Assembly: GCF_947499585.1 (NCBI RefSeq)
Contig: NZ_CANMOO010000003.1
Span: 1 to 64,000, forward strand
DNA length: 64,000 bases
Source: an uncultured Allomuricauda sp.
GTDB lineage: Bacteria > Bacteroidota > Bacteroidia > Flavobacteriales > Flavobacteriaceae
Direction of reading: 5' to 3'
The position numbers were made by a program, and so were the translations under genes. Below, in pieces: positions 11,794 through 63,726 of this stretch; positions within the stretch are counted from its first letter, which is position 1, and the number at the start of each line of letters is the position of its first letter. Under the pieces are notes generated by a model. The model saw only the letters and a program-made list of their open reading frames with translations. It was not told where the DNA came from and searched no databases.

Positions 11794-13476
11794 TTATTGT
11801 GCAAACCATAGTGTGGTTCCTTGCACGTCTGCTCCTTGTATACCATCTATAGCCGCAAAATTGGGATTATCCTGTGCTCCAGAACCATACCTCATTCTTT
11901 GCGGATATGCACCATTTAAGGTGCCCAGTCCAAAAATGGTCTGATTGGATACCCCAGCAGCCAATTCTGTAGGGTAACCCGTATCTCTTACTACTGCCCA
12001 TGCTTCAAAACCATCTGTATAACCTGCCAACCATCTTTGATGGGCGATTTTTTCCAGCCTCTCATCGGTGGTGCCACCTGTGATGTCCGCAGCAGCCTCT
12101 GTCGCAATATAGGTATCTGCATCCCCTTCTGAAATATTCCAAAGTTTCATGGCTTCCTTGATGCCTGTGGCAAACAAGGTCTGTGCATCCCCTCCAGATA
12201 ATCCTTTTACAACAGCTTCTGCTTGCAAGAAGTACGATTCCGCGCTGGTTAAAACAATTTCAGGGTAGGCGTCAACTTGAGCCCCCTTTTCCTGTATTAC
12301 CCTGTCACTTGGTGTGCTGAAAAGATCGTAACGCACATAGGGATAGGTATCACCATTGATTCTTGTGGGTTGGCCAATATATTGGCCAGGAGCAAGTTCA
12401 ATAGTGGTTTCATCTCCTGCAGTGGAAATGGTATAGTCTGCTCCTGCACGATCAAGAGAGGCAACAATAAAATCCAACCTATCTTGATAATTTGGATCCG
12501 GAGTTTCTGCGTTGTTAGCGAATAGAAAAGAACCTCCCACTGCAGGTTTGGCATAGACCGAAAGTCTTGGGTCATTATTGTCTTTTAACATGTTGATAAG
12601 TGTGGCTCCCACGGTCCAATCGGATCCGCCACCAAAGTTATGCCATACATCTCCATATGCCGCTGCTGCCCATTGACTGATTACAAAATCCTTGGTCATC
12701 ACAACACTTCCGTTGACATCATCCAAAAGTGGAGCTGCCAATGCTTCATTAATTGTCGCGGCAGCAAAACTTTCTCCAGGGGCGCCTAGTGCGCGCATAG
12801 CTATTCTTAGTTTTAAGGTGTTGGCCAAACGCTTCCATTGTTGTAGATCACCTCCACAATAGATATCGTTACTTCCAGCATCGTTTACACCAATTCCCGT
12901 TCTTTCGGTATCTCCTATGATGGACATGGCTTCATCCAAGTCTGCGATAATACCTTGGTAGATTACCGATTGCTCATCAAACTTAGGTGTTAAAACACCC
13001 TCTACACCTGCTTCTGTATATGGAACCATGCCAAAAGTATCTGTGTACATTTGATAATAGAGACCTTTGATGATTAAAGACATGGCAAACATAAATTCGT
13101 TTTCCAAATCTCCTCCTTCCTGAACAAATCTCTGGAACTCAACCACTCTTCCCAAGTAATTATTAAGCCAGTCAAAGGATGCATCCGTATATCCTGCGTT
13201 GTAATCATAGCATAGTTCATCTGACCACCAAGAGGAATTATGACCAAAAGTAAAATGTCCGGCATAACGATCCGCATGGATCAATTGAGCCCTCCAATAT
13301 GGAAAACGATCAGGTGAATACAAGCGGAACTGAACGTCCGTTAAAAAGAACTTGGCACTTACCTCATCAGCAAGAAAACCTTCCTGATCGGTATTCATTT
13401 CTTCAAAATTCTCAGTACACGAGCTAGCCAAAATAAGGCACAACAACATGTAGGATAATAATTCAATTTTTTTCAT
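11794..13476 (-). CDS. SusD/RagB-family surface glycan-binding lipoprotein
   Basis: A 560-residue lipoprotein with signal peptide and lipobox ending in LASSC (Cys 20), followed by NFEEMNTDQEG, the N-terminal signature of the SusD-like_2 group. Helical TPR-like segments follow, for example WKRLANTLKLRIAMRA, and the C-terminal YPQRMRYG motif is typical of SusD proteins. It lies 11 bases after the SusC gene on the same strand and will form the lid of the SusC transporter at the outer membrane. Its ligand is inferred, from the enzymes of the locus, to be a mannose-containing oligosaccharide. Confidence 0.92.
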   Translation of the reverse strand: MKKIELLSYMLLCLILASSCTENFEEMNTDQEGFLADEVSAKFFLTDVQFRLYSPDRFPYWRAQLIHADRYAGHFTFGHNSSWWSDELCYDYNAGYTDASFDWLNNYLGRVVEFQRFVQEGGDLENEFMFAMSLIIKGLYYQMYTDTFGMVPYTEAGVEGVLTPKFDEQSVIYQGIIADLDEAMSIIGDTERTGIGVNDAGSNDIYCGGDLQQWKRLANTLKLRIAMRALGAPGESFAAATINEALAAPLLDDVNGSVVMTKDFVISQWAAAAYGDVWHNFGGGSDWTVGATLINMLKDNNDPRLSVYAKPAVGGSFLFANNAETPDPNYQDRLDFIVASLDRAGADYTISTAGDETTIELAPGQYIGQPTRINGDTYPYVRYDLFSTPSDRVIQEKGAQVDAYPEIVLTSAESYFLQAEAVVKGLSGGDAQTLFATGIKEAMKLWNISEGDADTYIATEAAADITGGTTDERLEKIAHQRWLAGYTDGFEAWAVVRDTGYPTELAAGVSNQTIFGLGTLNGAYPQRMRYGSGAQDNPNFAAIDGIQGADVQGTTLWFAQ

Positions 13477-57436: not shown

Positions 57437-58024
57437 ATGAGGAGGGCGTTTGTTTTAATTTGTATTCTAATTGCTTTGATGGGATGCAATCGAATTGATA
57501 ATAAGAAAACTGAGCTAACAACAAATTTTGAGAGCTACGGTAAAATAAACCCAAATGCCCCAAAAGAAACAGGGCAATGGGGTCAATTAGCAGGTGAATG
57601 GGACTGCATTTCAATGGACTTGGATACAAGAAACAAAACTGAAGCTAAGTGGTATTCCAACAGAGCCACTTGGAAATGGGAATATGTACTTGGAGGTCAT
57701 GCGGTACTTAATCAATGGTGGCAAGAGGATACTTCACCAAACCCAATTACTAAAGAGTATTTTGCTACTGGCATGTTTATTTTTAATCCAAAGACTACAA
57801 AGTGGGAAGCTGTTGTTATGAATTCAAGGCCCCATAAAATCTCACCAAAGTTTGAGGCTGAATATAGAGATGGGACAATTCAAATGCATGATGGAACAGG
57901 GAAATGGCTAGTTACTTTTTACGATATACAAGAAAATTCTTTTCAATGGAAATATGAAATTCTTTCAGACAATGGTGAATGGGAACCAATTAGCAAAATA
58001 AGCGCAAAACGAAAGAAAATATAA
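57437..58024 (+). CDS. Hypothetical lipoprotein, DUF1579-like
   Basis: I chose the ATG at 57437 (MRRAFVLICILIALMGC), which gives a normal lipoprotein leader (Cys 17); an upstream in-frame Met at 57416 would lengthen the n-region without help. The 195-residue product has a beta-rich domain with QLAGEWDC, WKWEYVLGGHAVLNQWW, and WEAVVMNSRPHKISPKFE, similar to the DUF1579 group of lipocalin-like folds. The tryptophan content is high. Function is unknown. It is followed by the DUF1272 and GNAT genes, a possible small operon. Confidence 0.72.
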   Translation: MRRAFVLICILIALMGCNRIDNKKTELTTNFESYGKINPNAPKETGQWGQLAGEWDCISMDLDTRNKTEAKWYSNRATWKWEYVLGGHAVLNQWWQEDTSPNPITKEYFATGMFIFNPKTTKWEAVVMNSRPHKISPKFEAEYRDGTIQMHDGTGKWLVTFYDIQENSFQWKYEILSDNGEWEPISKISAKRKKI

Positions 58025-58056
58025 GCTTTGCTAAAAGTTTTGTTAAAACAATAGAT

Positions 58057-58230
58057 ATGGAAATGCGGAATAAATGTGAAAAGTGTGGTGCCATATTAAA
58101 TCATAAGTCGGAGGCATACATATGTAGTTATGAATGTACATTTTGTAGCACTTGTTCTATTGGTATGGAGTACAACTGTATTAATTGTAATGGAGAATTG
58201 GTTATTCGTCCAAAAAGAAAAGTGAAATGA
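58057..58230 (+). CDS. DUF1272-family small zinc-binding protein
   Basis: A 57-residue protein from the ATG at 58057 (MEMRNKCEKCG); a second ATG follows at 58063. Eight cysteines are arranged CxxC, then CxxxCxxCxxC, then CxxC, with the conserved ICSYECTFCSTC and the tail NCNGELVIRPKRK, which match DUF1272. Two zinc sites are likely. Its stop overlaps the GNAT start by 4 bases (ATGA), so the two are co-translated. It is often found near acetyltransferases, but its role is unknown. Confidence 0.85.
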   Translation: MEMRNKCEKCGAILNHKSEAYICSYECTFCSTCSIGMEYNCINCNGELVIRPKRKVK

Positions 58231-58670
58231 AGTTCAGAAAAGCTATATTAAGAGATATACCCAACTTAGCTAAACTATTTGAAGAATATAGGGTCTTTTA
58301 TGGAGAAGAATCCAACTTGGAACTTGCCGCCAGTTTTATTGGACAACGCATTAAGAATGGTGAATCAATAGTATTTATTGGTGAAAATGCTGACAATCAA
58401 ATTGTTGGTTTTGCTCAATTATATCCTCTTTTTTCTTCCACACGGCTAAAGAAAATATGGTTGTTGAATGATTTATTTGTTGATAGCAATTTTAGAGGTC
58501 GTGGAATTTCAAAAAACCTGCTGGATTGTGCTAAAGATCTATGTAGGGAAACGGGTGCTTGTGAACTTACTCTAGAAACACAAAGGAATAATATTATTGC
58601 CAATCGACTGTATAAAAAAACAGGCTTTTTATTGGACATTGAGCATAACTTTTATGCATGGTCTGGATAG
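58227..58670 (+). CDS. GNAT-family N-acetyltransferase
   Basis: A 147-residue cytoplasmic enzyme of standard GNAT length. It has KFRKAILRDIPNLAKLFEEY at the start, IVGFAQLYPLFSS, LNDLFVDSNFRGRGISKNLLD with the acetyl-CoA pyrophosphate loop (RGRGIS), and ANRLYKKTGFL near the end. The acceptor substrate is not predictable. It is translationally coupled to the DUF1272 gene. Confidence 0.92.
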   Translation: MKFRKAILRDIPNLAKLFEEYRVFYGEESNLELAASFIGQRIKNGESIVFIGENADNQIVGFAQLYPLFSSTRLKKIWLLNDLFVDSNFRGRGISKNLLDCAKDLCRETGACELTLETQRNNIIANRLYKKTGFLLDIEHNFYAWSG

Positions 58671-58696
58671 AACCATATTCTTAATACGCCTATAAA

Positions 58697-59824
58697 ATGC
58701 TTTTTGATTGGAAAAGTGCGCTGCTATTCGTTGGTGCTGGACAGGGTTTAATAGTAGGGCTAATTTTACTATTTGAAAAAACGGAAAATTACAAGCGGAT
58801 TTTTGGCCTAACTACTATTTTGTTCGCAATACATTTAATTGAATATAGCATTTTTAGATCACCCAACAGTTTCGATAAATTAGTAGAATTCTTTGGTTAT
58901 AGGTTTCCAATCAGGTTATGTGTTGGCCCACTTTTTTTATTCTATACAATAAGATTGACCCAGATAAAAAAATTAAGTTTTTTTGCTATTACTTTCCATT
59001 TTGTCCCTGCTCTTGTTTCATTATTATTATTGATTCCTTTTTTTATTTTGCCACATTATACAAAGATTTTACTTCTTAACAGTTTTGTCCCTTTCGGAAA
59101 TCAATATTATGATAAACTGATATCACTCCTATGGATAGTGTCTATTTTTTCAATGTTTATTTATCTCTTTTTTAGTTTAATCAAGATTATAAAATATCGC
59201 AGCAGAAGTGCTGAACATCATAGTAATGAAGAAAAATTTTGGGTTTTATCCTTTTATAGGTTCACTTTCTTATGTGTAATGGTGCTGGTCGGATATTTAT
59301 TTGCGGTGGCACTTCGCTTGTTTGAAGCCCTAGACACTTCTATGCTTTATTCGATAATGTCATTCATACTTATGACAAATCTTGTCATTTTATCAATAGC
59401 GGTTATGAAACAAAAAAGGATCATTCCAGTTGAGGCAATGGGGCCAAAAAAAGGCTTTGATGTTATAAGAAAGGTTAATAAGGTAACAGAGGAGGAGCTA
59501 TTTGAAATGGATGCGGTGGTTTTAGGCAATAGTCTTTTTCTAAACCCTAACTTAACAATTAATGATTTAGCATCTGTATTACGGATACCTTCACATATAG
59601 TCTCACACAGAATAAATAAAGGTCATAGGAAATCGTTCTTTACTTATATAAATGAATACAGGATTGAACACTCTAAGAACCTTCTTTCCCAAACAGATGC
59701 GAAAATACTAGCAGTTGCTCTTGATTCTGGTTTTTCAAATAAAACCAGTTTTCATAGAACTTTTAAACGAATAGAGGGCATAACACCAGAAGCTTTTCGT
59801 TTTAAAAATAGAATGTTACAATAA
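58697..59824 (+). CDS. Membrane-bound AraC-family regulator
   Basis: A 375-residue protein with seven membrane segments in the first 240 residues and a C-terminal AraC domain (about 290-372; NDLASVLRIPSHIVSHRINKG, ILAVALDSGFSNKTSFHRTFKRIEGITPEAFR). It has the same architecture as 51386-52519 but the sequences are clearly diverged. No target is evident; the next gene is a hypothetical exported protein. Confidence 0.9.
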   Translation: MLFDWKSALLFVGAGQGLIVGLILLFEKTENYKRIFGLTTILFAIHLIEYSIFRSPNSFDKLVEFFGYRFPIRLCVGPLFLFYTIRLTQIKKLSFFAITFHFVPALVSLLLLIPFFILPHYTKILLLNSFVPFGNQYYDKLISLLWIVSIFSMFIYLFFSLIKIIKYRSRSAEHHSNEEKFWVLSFYRFTFLCVMVLVGYLFAVALRLFEALDTSMLYSIMSFILMTNLVILSIAVMKQKRIIPVEAMGPKKGFDVIRKVNKVTEEELFEMDAVVLGNSLFLNPNLTINDLASVLRIPSHIVSHRINKGHRKSFFTYINEYRIEHSKNLLSQTDAKILAVALDSGFSNKTSFHRTFKRIEGITPEAFRFKNRMLQ

Positions 59825-59916
59825 CACTTTTCAAAAATGTTACCCTATTTGGCAAAAATTTGGATATGGCATCCTCAATTTTTGATTTGTTTTATGTCAA
59901 CTAATTTAATTTGTAA

Positions 59917-60615
59917 ATGATGAAAACTACTAAATTATTGACAATACTTTTATTAAGTATTTGTGTTTTAAACGCCCAAAGTGAAAATTTTTCAGAAGAG
60001 ATGCAAAAAGGCTTTGATACGTACTCCAATGGAGAAACTTTTTTAGATTGGAAAAAAGGAGCCGAAATTTTGGAAAAAGTAAGTGAGAGCTACAAAGACC
60101 AATGGCTTCCAAACTATTGGGCCAGTTATTTCTATACGCAACTTGTAAGAAACATACCAAAAGATAATCGACCAGAAGGAGTAACTGAAGAGCTTCTGCT
60201 CAAAAAATCACAAGAAAATATTGATAAGGCATATGGTAGAATCAAAAAGATGAACAAGGAAATAAAATCCGACTTCCATGCATTACAATCATTAATTTAC
60301 AATTTCAGTGAATGGACCTCGGGTAATGAGGCATTGAAAAAAGAATTTCGCGAAAAAGCTGAAACAGAATTGAAAAAAGCGATTAGCGCCAATTCCAATA
60401 ATCCTTTAGCAGATGTTATTGTAGCAACAAATCTTGTAAAAAAGGGAGATTATCAATCTGTTTATGCCGGAAGAGTACTTTTATTAACTGCTAAAAGGAA
60501 GTATGACATGAGAATTGAGCCTAGATATATGTCTTCTCATTGGAATGAGCAATGGATTGGTTATTGGCTCGGCTCGGCTAATAAGGGAGTAGAATTTTTG
60601 ACAAAAACCGAATAA
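59917..60615 (+). CDS. Hypothetical exported helical (TPR-like) protein
   Basis: A 232-residue protein with signal peptide ending in VLNAQ. The mature part is mostly helical, with AEILEKVSESYKDQWLPNYWASYFYTQL, DFHALQSLIYNF, and AKKTELKKAISANSNNPLADVI-like helices typical of TPR proteins. Start ATG at 59917, with a second ATG next to it. Such proteins are widespread in Flavobacteriaceae next to diverse genes; function is not known. It ends in a strong terminator. Confidence 0.78.
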   Translation: MMKTTKLLTILLLSICVLNAQSENFSEEMQKGFDTYSNGETFLDWKKGAEILEKVSESYKDQWLPNYWASYFYTQLVRNIPKDNRPEGVTEELLLKKSQENIDKAYGRIKKMNKEIKSDFHALQSLIYNFSEWTSGNEALKKEFREKAETELKKAISANSNNPLADVIVATNLVKKGDYQSVYAGRVLLLTAKRKYDMRIEPRYMSSHWNEQWIGYWLGSANKGVEFLTKTE

Positions 60616-60658
60616 CAACAATTTGGTAGAATCGTTTTTTGGTTTCATTTTTATTAAT

Positions 60659-60692
60659 AAAACCCCAATAATCAAAAGATTATTGGGGTTTT
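60659..60692 (+). terminator. Terminator after the TPR-like gene
   Basis: A perfect 15-bp stem AAAACCCCAATAATC / GATTATTGGGGTTTT (60659-60673 with 60678-60692) with an AAAA loop, and T-rich ends in either direction. It ends the 59917-60615 gene. Confidence 0.88.
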
Positions 60693-60718
60693 AACTTTCT
60701 GTTTCTGCATATTAGAAA

Positions 60719-60960
60719 AAGAGAGTTCAATGGGAACCCAATAAACAACACCAGACGTGTAGAGAGGGTTCTTAAACTCATAAAGTTCCTCTCCGAGTTA
60801 GAACCATCAGGGAGATAAACAAACACCTCAGCATTCACGAAAAGAGCGTACAGCGATATTTGAACTTAATGGTGCAGTTAGGCTTTGATGTTGAGGTAAA
60901 GATGGGCAAGTGCCATTCATATCGTATTACCAACACTCAGGAGTATTTTGAGGTAGCGTA
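60719..60960 (+). pseudogene. Frameshifted remnant of a WYL/HTH-type regulator
   Basis: Two frames together read as one helix-turn-helix. Frame A gives TRRVERVLKLIKFLSE, then, after a shift near 60795-60810, frame B gives VRTIREINKHLSIHEKSVQRYLNLMVQLGF, and ends RITNTQEYFEVA and a stop at 60960. This is the DNA-binding head of a WYL/DeoR-type regulator, with no start codon in frame and no C-terminal domain. It is decaying rather than functional; one frameshift plus lack of a start argue against a working gene. Confidence 0.55.
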
Positions 60961-60974
60961 ATGGAAGACTTTTT

Positions 60975-61890
60975 GATGGTCACTACGCGCGGGTATTAAT
61001 GAGTCTTTGATTTTGAAAAAGTTTGATTAATTAATTATTTGAAATCAATGAATTCTTTTCCTTTCAGTTCTCCAATAGAGTGCATGGGTTCTTCATAATA
61101 CTTCACCGGATGGCTAAATGGTTTGAAATGATGTCCAATGGCAAACCCAATCTGAACACAGAAATTTTCTTCTGTGGTCAAATAAACGTTATCATATTCA
61201 TCATCGGATTTTGGTATGAACAACATTACCTTTTTATTGTCAATGGGCCTTTGAACCCACTCCTCTGTTTCCTTGGTAGTGGTCCAACCTCTTATAACAG
61301 GACTATATTCAATGTTATTGGGGTAGTGCAAATAGTTCACAAACACACAAAAAGTAGCGAAATCAATGTCATAAGGAAAGGTGACAACAAACTCATCCTC
61401 TCCAATCGTAAATAGCCTGGGCAGTGCCCTAAAACCTTCCTGATTGTACATATTACAGAACTGCTCAATTGCTTTCTCCAAATCCTTTTTCTTTAAACTC
61501 TTAATACTGATAAGTTTATCATTAATGACTTCCTCAACAGGTAACAAATTTTGATTGGGCCTACTAGATTTAACAGATGGGAGGCAAGATTTGATTAAAA
61601 GAGCCACTGCTGCAACTGCAATAATTATAATTAAGGTTCTGTTCATGGAAACAATATTTAAATGAGATAAACTTATGAATTTACCTATTTCCATCCTACT
61701 GGAACTTTTTAGCGACGGCTTAAATTTTACCGGCAATTAATATATTGGAGTTACATAATGGAAGAATAATTTGGGGTCACTACGCGCGCGCGTATTGCTT
61801 ACTTTTTGATTTTTAAAGAATATTTGGGTATCTGTCGCGCATGTATTGAATTAGACTTCGTGACTATCTGTTCGTGTATTAGGAACTTAG
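60975..61890. repeat. Dispersed GC-rich repeat GGTCACTACGCGCGnGTATT, four degenerate copies
   Basis: Near 60977-60997 and 61767-61795 the sequence reads GGTCACTACGCGCG then GTATT. Two more diverged copies, TCTGTCGCGCATGTATTG near 61831-61852 and GTGACTATCTGTTCGTGTATT near 61860-61882, follow directly. The CG-rich core is striking in an AT-rich stretch. The copies flank the hypothetical gene at 61035-61646. The nature of the repeat (palindromic element, remnant of an insertion, or regulatory motif) is not recognised. The rest of the 61647-62104 gap shows only a promoter candidate. Confidence 0.5.
61035..61646 (-). CDS. Hypothetical membrane-anchored or exported protein
   Basis: I chose the ATG at 61646 (MNRTLIIIIAVAAVALLIKSC), which gives an N-terminal hydrophobic segment that may act as an anchor or lipoprotein leader; the longer frame to 61736 adds a polar extension. 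The 203-residue product has no recognised domain. Visible segments are PYDIDFATFCVFVNYLHYP, RGWTTTKETEEWVQRP and FIPKSDDEYDNVYLTTEENFCVQIGFAIG. It lies between two copies of the GC-rich repeat, a sign of an accessory gene. Function unknown. Confidence 0.65.
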   Translation of the reverse strand: MNRTLIIIIAVAAVALLIKSCLPSVKSSRPNQNLLPVEEVINDKLISIKSLKKKDLEKAIEQFCNMYNQEGFRALPRLFTIGEDEFVVTFPYDIDFATFCVFVNYLHYPNNIEYSPVIRGWTTTKETEEWVQRPIDNKKVMLFIPKSDDEYDNVYLTTEENFCVQIGFAIGHHFKPFSHPVKYYEEPMHSIGELKGKEFIDFK

Positions 61891-62056
61891 CAAAACCCAA
61901 CATTCAAAACAACGATGTAGCAACGAGGGAAGGACTTAAAAACGACGAGGATAATTTCAATTGATATTGATTAATCAATTTTTTTCAAACGGGTGTGTAA
62001 TGGTATTTGCAATCAATTAACTGATTTAAACTGAATTATTAATAATCTTTTTTAAT

Positions 62057-62086
62057 TTGTGAGTTGCCAATAAAAATTCATCTTTG
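62057..62086 (+). promoter_or_regulatory. Candidate Bacteroidota promoter
   Basis: TTG at 62057-62059, then 19 bases, then CATCTTTG at 62079-62086, one base from the TAnnTTTG pattern. It would start transcription near 62093 and leave a short leader before the ATG at 62105, which supports that start over the upstream ATG at 62084. Confidence 0.35.
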
Positions 62087-62104
62087 AACAGTAAATATCA
62101 TAAT

Positions 62105-62675
62105 ATGAAAAAAACACTTGCCCTATTTTTACTATTACTACCATTTCAATTAACTTATTCTCAAATACATGGAGGAAGTGAGCGAACTTTATTTTTCAGA
62201 AATGGCGACAGCCTTATTTGCAAAGGTTATTACAACTTAAAAAAGCAGCAATTTGTTATCCCAGATAGCATAACAAAAAAAAAGGTTAAGTATGATTATA
62301 GAACTATTTCTCATGTTAAGTGGATAGATGGAAGTATAGGGTATTTTAAAATTATTTCTGGGAAAAACATCCCACAGTTAATGGGATTAGAAAAAAAAAG
62401 GCAAACTCAATTTATATGGTATTACTTATAGTACTTATGGGTCTGTTCATGGAGGTTACTCCAGTGGAGGTATAATTTACTATATCGGCAAAGACGAAAG
62501 TAGTAATGCGACAAATTTAAGAGATAAACCAAATGGCTTTAGATTACCTTTTAAAAAATATGCCTCAGAATATTTTTCCGATTGTCCTGAGTTAGTTGAA
62601 AAAATTTCAAATGGTGAATTTAAACACAAACATCTTCCAGAAATAGTGGATTTTTATAATGCTCATTGCAACTAA
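62105..62675 (+). pseudogene. Exported hypothetical protein interrupted by a frameshift in a run of nine A
   Basis: From the ATG at 62105 (MKKTLALFLLLLPFQLTYSQ, a clean signal peptide) the frame runs to residue about 96 and then a stop at 62431. The run of nine A at 62391-62399 is the likely shift. If it had eight A the frame would continue through NLYGITYSTYGSVHGGYSSGG, IIYYIGKDESSNATNL and SDCPELVEKISNGEFKHKHLP to a stop at 62673-62675, a sensible protein of about 190 residues. Either a real one-base insertion, a sequencing slip, or slippage-based phase variation can explain it. No known domain is recognised. Confidence 0.65.
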
Positions 62676-62779
62676 TGATATGGAAAGAATATTTTCCTGA
62701 CTAACTACTCACTTGATTATAGACAACTTTACTGGGTTTGGGACAAAAAATGGGATAAAAAAACTTTCATAAAACAAAA

Positions 62780-62808
62780 AACCCAGCAAGAATAGTACTT
62801 ACTGGGTT
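62780..62808 (-). terminator. Minus-strand hairpin terminator, tRNA type
   Basis: Arms AACCCAGCAAG (62780-62790) and CTTACTGGGTT (62798-62808), one mismatch, with a T-rich tail on the minus strand. No minus-strand gene lies upstream except the tRNA-like relic that starts 8 bases away. The spacing (7 bases between hairpin and tRNA 3' end) equals that of the intact tRNA-Asp and its terminator at 63609-63645. Confidence 0.6.
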
Positions 62809-62815
62809 ATTACTG

Positions 62816-62829
62816 CTCTCCCTCTTGGA
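62816..62829 (-). pseudogene. Apparent 3'-end relic of a tRNA
   Basis: On the minus strand the bases read as the 3' part of a T arm (CCAAG), an acceptor strand (AGGGAGA) and a discriminator G, followed by CAG. The intact tRNA-Asp nearby has the same discriminator and CAG flank and its terminator at the same distance. The rest of the tRNA is missing. Its 5' acceptor would have been TCTCCCT, so it was not a second Asp copy; tRNA-Asn is possible but cannot be shown. Such 3' fragments are left when an element inserts into a tRNA gene. The match is short. Confidence 0.35.
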
Positions 62830-62884
62830 GAAATATTAAAGTTAAATGAATAAAATTGGTACTATATCTGCTGCCTTTCGAACG

Positions 62885-63547
62885 ATGAGGTATTTAGTCT
62901 ACATCTTTTGCTTAACCTTTGTGTCTGGATGTGAAGACCACATTAACAATACATCAGATGATATAGCCAAGTTTGAGGCACAATTCTATTCAAAAGACTT
63001 CCTTGAGCATAAATTAGAAAAGGACTTTGAAATATTGAAACTTGACTCCTTTGAGAACTTCGGAGAACTTCTAGCATCAATGGAGTTGCTTTCGTGTGAA
63101 GATAAATGGATTGGGCTTGAATTCAATCATGAAAATATTTACTACCATATAACAGGATATACTGAATGCCCAACAAGTGGAATAATATCTTGCCATTTCA
63201 ATCAAAACATGATCTTTGTTAAAAATGATTCATTGCGTCTTTCTGGGTTTGGAGAAGGAAAGTTTCATATTAATGAATTGAAGACCCAAATAATCAAATT
63301 CAATGATTATTCAGAATACCACGGTATTTTTGGAAAAAGAAGGTTGAAGCCTGCACTTGTGTTTCTAAACGTCCAAAACAACTTACCAATAGTAAAGACA
63401 AAGGAAGTAATTAAGGAAATAGCAGAACAGTTCAAAAAAATCAATGAAGAGTTAGGGACAGAAAAATATTTCTACCAACTGAATTTTGAAAGGTATTCCT
63501 ACTTGGATATTCCCCCTCCGCCACCGCCACCCATGGTGGAAGAATAG
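62885..63547 (+). CDS. Hypothetical lipoprotein with polyproline C-terminus
   Basis: I chose the ATG at 62885 (MRYLVYIFCLTFVSGC, lipobox Cys 16); a frame from 62846 gives an extra polar N-terminus. The 220-residue product has no recognised domain. It contains ECPTSGIISCHF, a candidate disulfide pair, and ends IPPPPPPPMVEE, a run of seven prolines unlike the rest. It sits between the tRNA relic and the intact tRNA-Asp, so it may be a recent arrival. Confidence 0.65.
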   Translation: MRYLVYIFCLTFVSGCEDHINNTSDDIAKFEAQFYSKDFLEHKLEKDFEILKLDSFENFGELLASMELLSCEDKWIGLEFNHENIYYHITGYTECPTSGIISCHFNQNMIFVKNDSLRLSGFGEGKFHINELKTQIIKFNDYSEYHGIFGKRRLKPALVFLNVQNNLPIVKTKEVIKEIAEQFKKINEELGTEKYFYQLNFERYSYLDIPPPPPPPMVEE

Positions 63548-63608
63548 ATGTTTAAAAAACACTGGGATAAAATTTAACGTACATAAATCGTACATTATTT
63601 TAATGAAA

Positions 63609-63645
63609 AAATCCCAAAACATTGATAAACAATGAATTGGGATTT
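63609..63645 (-). terminator. Terminator of tRNA-Asp
   Basis: Outer stem AAATCCCAA (63609-63617) with TTGGGATTT (63637-63645), an inner CATTG/CAATG stem, and a T tract beyond on the minus strand. It follows the tRNA 3' end by 7 bases. Confidence 0.88.
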
Positions 63646-63652
63646 AACTCTG

Positions 63653-63726
63653 CGGTCTGGACGGGACTCGAACCCGCGACCCCCTGCGTGACAGGCAGGT
63701 ATTCTAACCAACTGAACTACCAGACC
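63653..63726 (-). tRNA. tRNA-Asp (GTC anticodon)
   Basis: A full cloverleaf on the minus strand: acceptor GGTCTGG with CCAGACC, D arm with GTTCAGTTGGTTAGAAT, anticodon stem CCTGC/GCAGG around CTGTCAC giving anticodon GTC, T arm CGGGTTCGAGTCCCG, and discriminator G. The 3' CCA is not encoded. Length 74 bases. Its terminator follows immediately. An inverted repeat TCTGAC / GTCAGA sits just upstream at 63749-63764. Confidence 0.97.

Follow-up and report, generated by a model that had tools for sequence, protein, structure and literature searches.

In the tRNA-targeted islands catalogued by Islander, as described in the published account, the target tRNA gene is restored, a displaced 3′ fragment of it is present, a tyrosine integrase is encoded, and crossover takes place at the anticodon loop, the T loop or the T-acceptor junction, the last two being counted together (PMC4383910). 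A related case is Salmonella genomic island 1, for which integration at a secondary site has been reported (PMC2297512). Site-specific islands driven by characterised integrases have likewise been described in Riemerella anatipestifer (PMC6764341, PMC9745183), a species of the Flavobacteriaceae (PMC9745183). Among the papers listed in a literature search, none dealt with the Flagellimonas elements reported below.

Here we analyzed a 64,000-nucleotide stretch (positions 1 to 64,000 of contig NZ_CANMOO010000003.1, referred to as the window) from an uncultured Allomuricauda sp., in which a tRNA 3′-end relic had been predicted 0.8 kb from an intact tRNA-Asp gene. The genome (G000) is assembled in 14 contigs, and the relic (contig C3) and its closest counterpart (contig C2) lie on separate contigs; comparisons were made with a genus set of 71 Flagellimonas genomes, the genus name being taken from the record of the relative G035 and from a kinship label. 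The C2 element resembles the Islander islands in tRNA restoration, displaced 3′ fragment, tyrosine integrase and T-loop/junction crossover. The window copy, in contrast, lacks both an integrase and a neighbouring cognate tRNA, and the filters described for Islander would reject it (PMC4383910). We put at roughly 0.8 the probability that the relic is one attachment-site end of a second, defunct copy of an element that integrates at tRNA-Asn.

Results

The predicted tRNA 3′ end with its own terminator proved to be real. On the minus strand, window positions 62828-62813 read CCAAGAGGGAGAGCAG, compared with CCAAGAGGGGGAGCAG for the same stretch of the intact tRNA-Asn (G000:C2:1026334-1026408), with one mismatch between them. 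The relic thus comprises the last 14 nt of tRNA-Asn(GTT) (nt 62-75) followed by the next two bases, AG, at an identity of 15/16 (13/14 for the core alone), and its hairpin terminator (62780-62808) is oriented in the tRNA sense. Folding of 62776-62840 gave a z of −4.6, and 0 of 200 shuffles were equally stable. The fragment had been likened in layout to the nearby tRNA-Asp, but its parent is tRNA-Asn on another contig: a whole-genome search with 161 bases around the relic matched one other place, C2:1026395-1026485, where the intact tRNA-Asn(GTT) ends and its 3′ flank begins (91 bp block, 91% identity, E 8.9e-31). ARAGORN identified a single tRNA in the window, the tRNA-Asp gene, which is unrelated to the relic in sequence. 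The expected intact tRNA with the same acceptor was found in part, as the exact 3′ end occurs in no tRNA and tRNA-Asn is the nearest, with AGGGGGA versus AGGGAGA in the relic. The exact 17-mer CTGCTCTCCCTCTTGGA was found in the window only in a genome-wide search, and scanning of the whole window revealed no other site within ≤3 mismatches of the relic 16-mer. The feature is also larger than first described, with the attachment block extending to ~62738 and a copied segment to ~60711 (Table 1).

The flank upstream of the relic (TTTAATATTTCT) is unlike tRNA-Asn and unlike a P arm. The five bases at its end form a mirror image of the right half of the relic (TCTCC-AAGAG-GGAGA, 62817-62831); they would fit a recombinase secondary site, although so few bases are suggestive only. 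The stretch TGGGACAAAAAATGGGATAAAAAA, which reads as a short open frame, was considered as an integrase C-terminal tail and this reading was rejected, because conservation does not extend past the second word and because complete elements have such pairs at both ends, outside the integrase gene.

Table 1. Coordinates of the features in the window and of the element cores in related genomes. Plain numbers are window positions.
Feature	Coordinates	Strand	Remarks
Displaced tRNA-Asp-type terminator with GCAG (60705-60708)	60653..60708	-	Far edge of the slot
Truncated copy of the 95 aa gene L031:10031-10318	60711..60961	+	Right limit computed from alignment
Copied part	60711-61683		vs L031 10282-9309, 90.7%
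Putative gene-conversion tract	60795..61296	-	2 differences/502 bp vs C2 copy; strong divergence on both sides
203 aa cargo gene	61035..61646	-	C2 element paralogue 84% aa; G035 tRNA-Asn element counterpart 85% aa
Copied part	61749-61897		vs L031 7242-7095
Spacer repeats	61749..62057	-	Common to C2:1033077-1033441 and C2:1035408-1035498
Copied part	61967-62057		vs L031 6951-6878
Cargo ORF in two frames	62105..62675	+	108 aa, then second frame
Copied part	62738-62828		vs L031 286-196
Whole attachment-site block	62738..62828	-	91% to C2:1026395-1026485 behind intact tRNA-Asn
Tandem word pair TATCCCATTTTTTGTCCCA	62739..62757	-	Candidate integrase arm-type sites (P' arm)
tRNA-Asn-type terminator hairpin	62780..62808	-	T-run toward lower coordinates
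Attachment core	62813..62828	-	tRNA-Asn nt 62-75 (T-stem 3′ strand, acceptor 3′ strand, discriminator) plus AG
Inverted half-sites TCTCC-AAGAG-GGAGA	62817-62831		At the attachment core
233 aa orphan gene	62846..63547	+	Between relic and tRNA-Asp
Word pair TGTACGATTTATGTACG	63578..63594	-	Behind the tRNA-Asp terminator
Intact tRNA-Asp(GTC)	63652..63726	-	Owner of the slot
Element cores, G035	L054 12418 and 6846
Element cores, G065	L118 1670 and 8034
Element cores, G059	L119 1681 and 13486
Element cores, G017	L078, L122

The relic falls in with a class of elements at tRNA-Asn whose displaced fragments begin in the T loop, found in five genomes: G000 (on C2), G065, G059, G017 and G035. In each of them the core CCAAGAGGGGGAGC stands at both element ends. 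The cores of the C2 element, at L031 196 (within tRNA-Asn) and 17290, are 17,094 bp apart (17.1 kb). In G059, the tRNA gene and its displaced fragment share sequence from nt 62 onward, and in G000, G065, G035 and G017 from nt 61. The relic, starting at nt 62, agrees with G059 and begins one base later than the other four. Next to the far core of the C2 element, which looks intact, lies a tyrosine recombinase of 444 aa (C2:1041975-1043306) with Phage_int_SAM_5 and Phage_integrase domains (67% identity to that of G065), and the recombinases at the far core in G065, G017 and G059 share 64-67% identity with it, those of G065 and G059 (445 and 441 aa) being 84% identical to each other. Matches to this recombinase at E ≤ 1e-60 were present in 5 of the 71 genus genomes, with the core alongside in four of them (G000, G065, G017 and G059); the fifth match, in G022 (37% identity), had no core within its locus. 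In G035, both cores and the far word pair are present, the near pair is decayed, and a search for an integrase of the class found none. The C2 element also carries a 90 aa excisionase-like gene that scores below the model cut-off.

Word pairs accompany these cores. TATCCCA-variant pairs occur at both ends of the C2 element, the pair TATCCCACTTTATATCCCA lying ~120-140 bases before the second core, and in G065 and G059 each end of the element behind tRNA-Asn has a pair, the two pairs being on the same strand; the far ends there comprise the recombinase, the word pair and the displaced tRNA fragment CCAAGAGGGGGAGC. When TATCC[C/A]A pairs were searched for as a degenerate pattern in the 71 genus genomes, with a reversed-pattern control, 20 matches were obtained in 15 genomes against 8 for the control; 10 matches lay at tRNA-Asn-type attachment sites (relic included), and the remaining 10 fell within other open reading frames. 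By itself, the pattern is not diagnostic. A second test compared 43 single flanks with 100 mononucleotide shuffles of each; the pair at the relic reached a p of about 0.05 and those at the C2 tRNA-Asn and the window tRNA-Asp 0.08. The weight of the word pairs comes instead from their recurrence at both ends of elements. As a separate observation, 13 of 41 tRNA-Asn/tRNA-Asp 3′ flanks (e.g. L011, L019, L048 and L051) in genus genomes had, past the terminator, a tandem pair of an 8-base word at 10-13 bp spacing (p ≤ 0.03 by shuffling), with words that vary between islands. The pair TTTGCACGC was found at both island ends, and such candidate arm-type sites could make an easy marker of island ends.

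Beyond the attachment block, window positions 60711-62828 reproduce, inverted and in shortened form, the 10 kb of the C2 element nearest to tRNA-Asn (L031 10282-196). The copied parts keep their order, with internal gaps; 61785-61874 additionally match L031 9299-9209, a repeat within C2. The C2 genes missing from the window copy include Jacalin, SRAP, a DinB-type polymerase and a homologue of DNA polymerase III alpha, the last three of which, at L031 1806-6887, are cargo resembling an SOS mutagenesis cassette. On the left, homology to the C2 element stops at 60711, inside the 95 aa gene and beside the tRNA-Asp scar. The cargo open reading frame at 62105-62675 has an apparent frameshift at a poly-A run near 62390-62400, either a pseudogene or a sequencing error, and a scan of its first frame (108 aa) gave no Pfam match. 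A counterpart of the 203 aa gene stands ~4.5 kb behind tRNA-Asn in G035. Its close form (84% aa or more) was found in 2 of the 71 genus genomes, twice in G000, and weak matches (31-33%) in four other genus genomes. The window protein differs in residue from that of C2 at 33 of 204 codons and from that of G035 at 31 of 204, and is about equally distant from the two. A third partial copy of the 60729-61040 region was seen at L056 5818-6123 (G000:C4, 79%), ~1.6 kb past the 3′ end of a tRNA-Leu that neighbours a tRNA-Gly.

The window copy therefore shares with the T-loop class the core, the terminator with the TATCC[C/A]A word pair, and the order of the shared cargo. The far-end integrase and the P arm are absent from it, and its left end is not joined to a tRNA-Asn 5′ part, the upstream flank not being tRNA. 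None of the genome's six PF00589 matches is on C3, so there is no integrase in the window copy. No second core was found in the window, the left junction at 60709 included, and no direct repeat bounds the copied segment. Since integrase and second core are lacking, the window copy is a remnant, and since the upstream flank is not tRNA, it is ectopic or displaced. The original prediction had placed the relic at the far side of an integrated element, and an element it does mark; it is not the far side of one at tRNA-Asp, however, and is best read as a tRNA-proximal end.

One part of the cargo is far more alike in the two copies than the rest. Outside the tract given in Table 1, which was compared with G000:C2:1035508-1036481, the window and C2 differ by 98 substitutions in 61297-61871 and by 11 in 60794-60716. 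In the cargo-region alignment the window copy is closer to G035 (84-89%) than to C2 (72-82%) in columns 200-500, and closer to C2 in columns 0-100 and 500-600. The simplest account would be that two older copies, already diverged, recently underwent gene conversion; the window copy would then not be a recent duplicate.

The copied segment lies in an island slot behind tRNA-Asp, which spans ~60709-63650 and of which the segment fills 60711-62828. This follows from a comparison with the nearest relative, Flagellimonas aquimarina ECD12 (G035, NZ_QGEG01000001.1), because the flanks match (57468-60708 at 88.5% and 63599-71472 at 86.9%), different DNA lies between them (4.9 kb in G035), and a tRNA-Asp scar is found at the far edge. 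In G035 this edge holds a displaced, decayed tRNA-Asp 3′ end (GTTCGGGTTCCTTCCAGACCGCAG) with a terminator, longer than the GCAG of this genome; it is located at L055 ~12735-12760, about 5 kb from the intact tRNA-Asp. No second copy of the remainder of the slot, the 233 aa gene included, was detected in this genome. The nearest homologue of that gene (55%) lies behind a tRNA-Leu in G071 (L060 1531-2181), convergent as in the window, and upstream of it no alignable sequence for an uninterrupted site was found. Matches, some of them weak, to the 233 aa family, which has a proline run at its C terminus, occur in 13 of the 71 genomes. The TGTACGATTTATGTACG pair may represent arm sites of a separate tRNA-Asp element, a suggestion that is weak alone (p about 0.08).

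Other islands at tRNA-Asn have a longer displaced 3′ half that starts at the anticodon loop. Such fragments begin at tRNA nt 29-33 and were found in at least 12 places in at least 10 of the 36 same-genus genomes searched. A displaced end of an island of this kind was rejected for the relic, which starts at nt 62 and not at nt 29-33. The pair TTTGCACGCAATTTGCACGC had 59 matches in 29 of the 71 genomes and none with the reversed control, often as two matches on the same strand, some 7-24 kb apart; in G024 they are 18.6 kb apart, at the two ends of a tRNA-Asn island whose integrase, the only one of this class scanned, has an Arm-DNA-bind_5 domain. Because the word pairs recur at both island ends, they are candidate integrase arm sites. 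Both classes stand in tandem behind one tRNA-Asn in G065 (G065:C1:1786885-1812533; L117 and L118), an anticodon-loop island (~19 kb) and, after it, a T-loop element (6.4 kb).

Discussion

The identity of the relic can be stated with high confidence, and we rate integration at a secondary site as the likeliest of several routes by which it could have arrived. The element would target tRNA-Asn, with crossover in the T-loop/T-stem region, and would itself bear the tRNA 3′ fragment, so no tRNA-Asn need ever have stood at this locus. The copy most likely entered the tRNA-Asp island slot at a secondary site resembling TTTCTCC-AAGAG, and a later deletion, reaching as far as the tRNA-Asp scar at 60705-60708, may have taken its integrase half. 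The uninterrupted secondary site beside the 233 aa gene would read TTTCTCCAAGAG into host sequence; no relative with such a site was found. The integration event itself cannot be shown, because an integrase and a second core are both missing from the copy in the window; the single mismatch in the core is a further point against the preferred reading. Secondary-site integration has a precedent in Salmonella genomic island 1 (PMC2297512), but the event here is read from one surviving end rather than observed. The fuller account, in which the integrase of the tRNA-Asn element used the non-tRNA site TTTCTCC-AAGAG in the slot of another tRNA, the island thereby moved between tRNA slots of one genome and the copies remained coupled by gene conversion of cargo, is offered tentatively.

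A chance breakpoint in the T loop combined with illegitimate recombination would give a similar picture. Illegitimate or homology-assisted recombination could have moved a fragment of the tRNA-Asn locus, from this genome or from a donor, into the tRNA-Asp slot, and the origin of the segment would then be the same as in the preferred reading and only the route different. There is no direct repeat around the segment, the integrase end is missing, and copies within this genome do exchange DNA, all of which agrees with such a route. We nevertheless regard it as unlikely, since the relic ends within ≤1 base of the fragment starts of five elements, a coincidence not expected of a random break.

It is less probable still that the relic is a genuine attR, left on the far side of an element at tRNA-Asn and later relocated to the tRNA-Asp slot together with the junction to its native flank. 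In G012, G024 and G065, displaced tRNA-Asn 3′ halves with such terminators do lie on the far side of islands, and the similarity of the window copy to G035 in columns 200-500 of the cargo alignment (84-89%, compared with 72-82% to C2) would suit this origin. The displaced halves in those three genomes, however, start at the anticodon loop and not at the T loop, the upstream flank of the relic has neither the P-arm words nor the integrase that stand at the far end in the four T-loop elements with an integrase, and columns 0-100 and 500-600 are nearer to C2.

A tandem Asn-Asp tRNA array broken by insertion of the gene at 62846-63547, the other origin that had been suggested, is not supported and very unlikely: two tRNA sequences stand close together in the same orientation, but the syntenic 16 kb of G035, the sole relative read across the whole slot, hold only tRNA-Asp, tRNA-Asn sits in both G000 and G035 behind a gene that we take to be rseP-like, and the cargo beyond the relic matches the tRNA-Asn element. 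A single element reaching from C2 to C3 was also rejected, as tRNA-Asn is ~181 kb from its contig end and the relic 62.8 kb into C3; even with adjacent contigs, the strands found make the gap larger.

For the preferred reading, a dead second copy, the principle is already known, and the locus is a tidy local case of a known type of genome scar. Islander looks for a cognate tRNA gene and a correctly oriented fragment with an integrase between them (PMC4383910), and here tRNA-Asn is on the other contig. A lone tRNA 3′ fragment can belong to a mobile element and not to a lost tRNA gene, and the two can be told apart by comparing the start of the fragment with the crossover point and by looking for recurring word pairs past the terminator. 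In Flagellimonas, two integrase classes use one tRNA gene, and a copy of one element lies in the slot of another tRNA.
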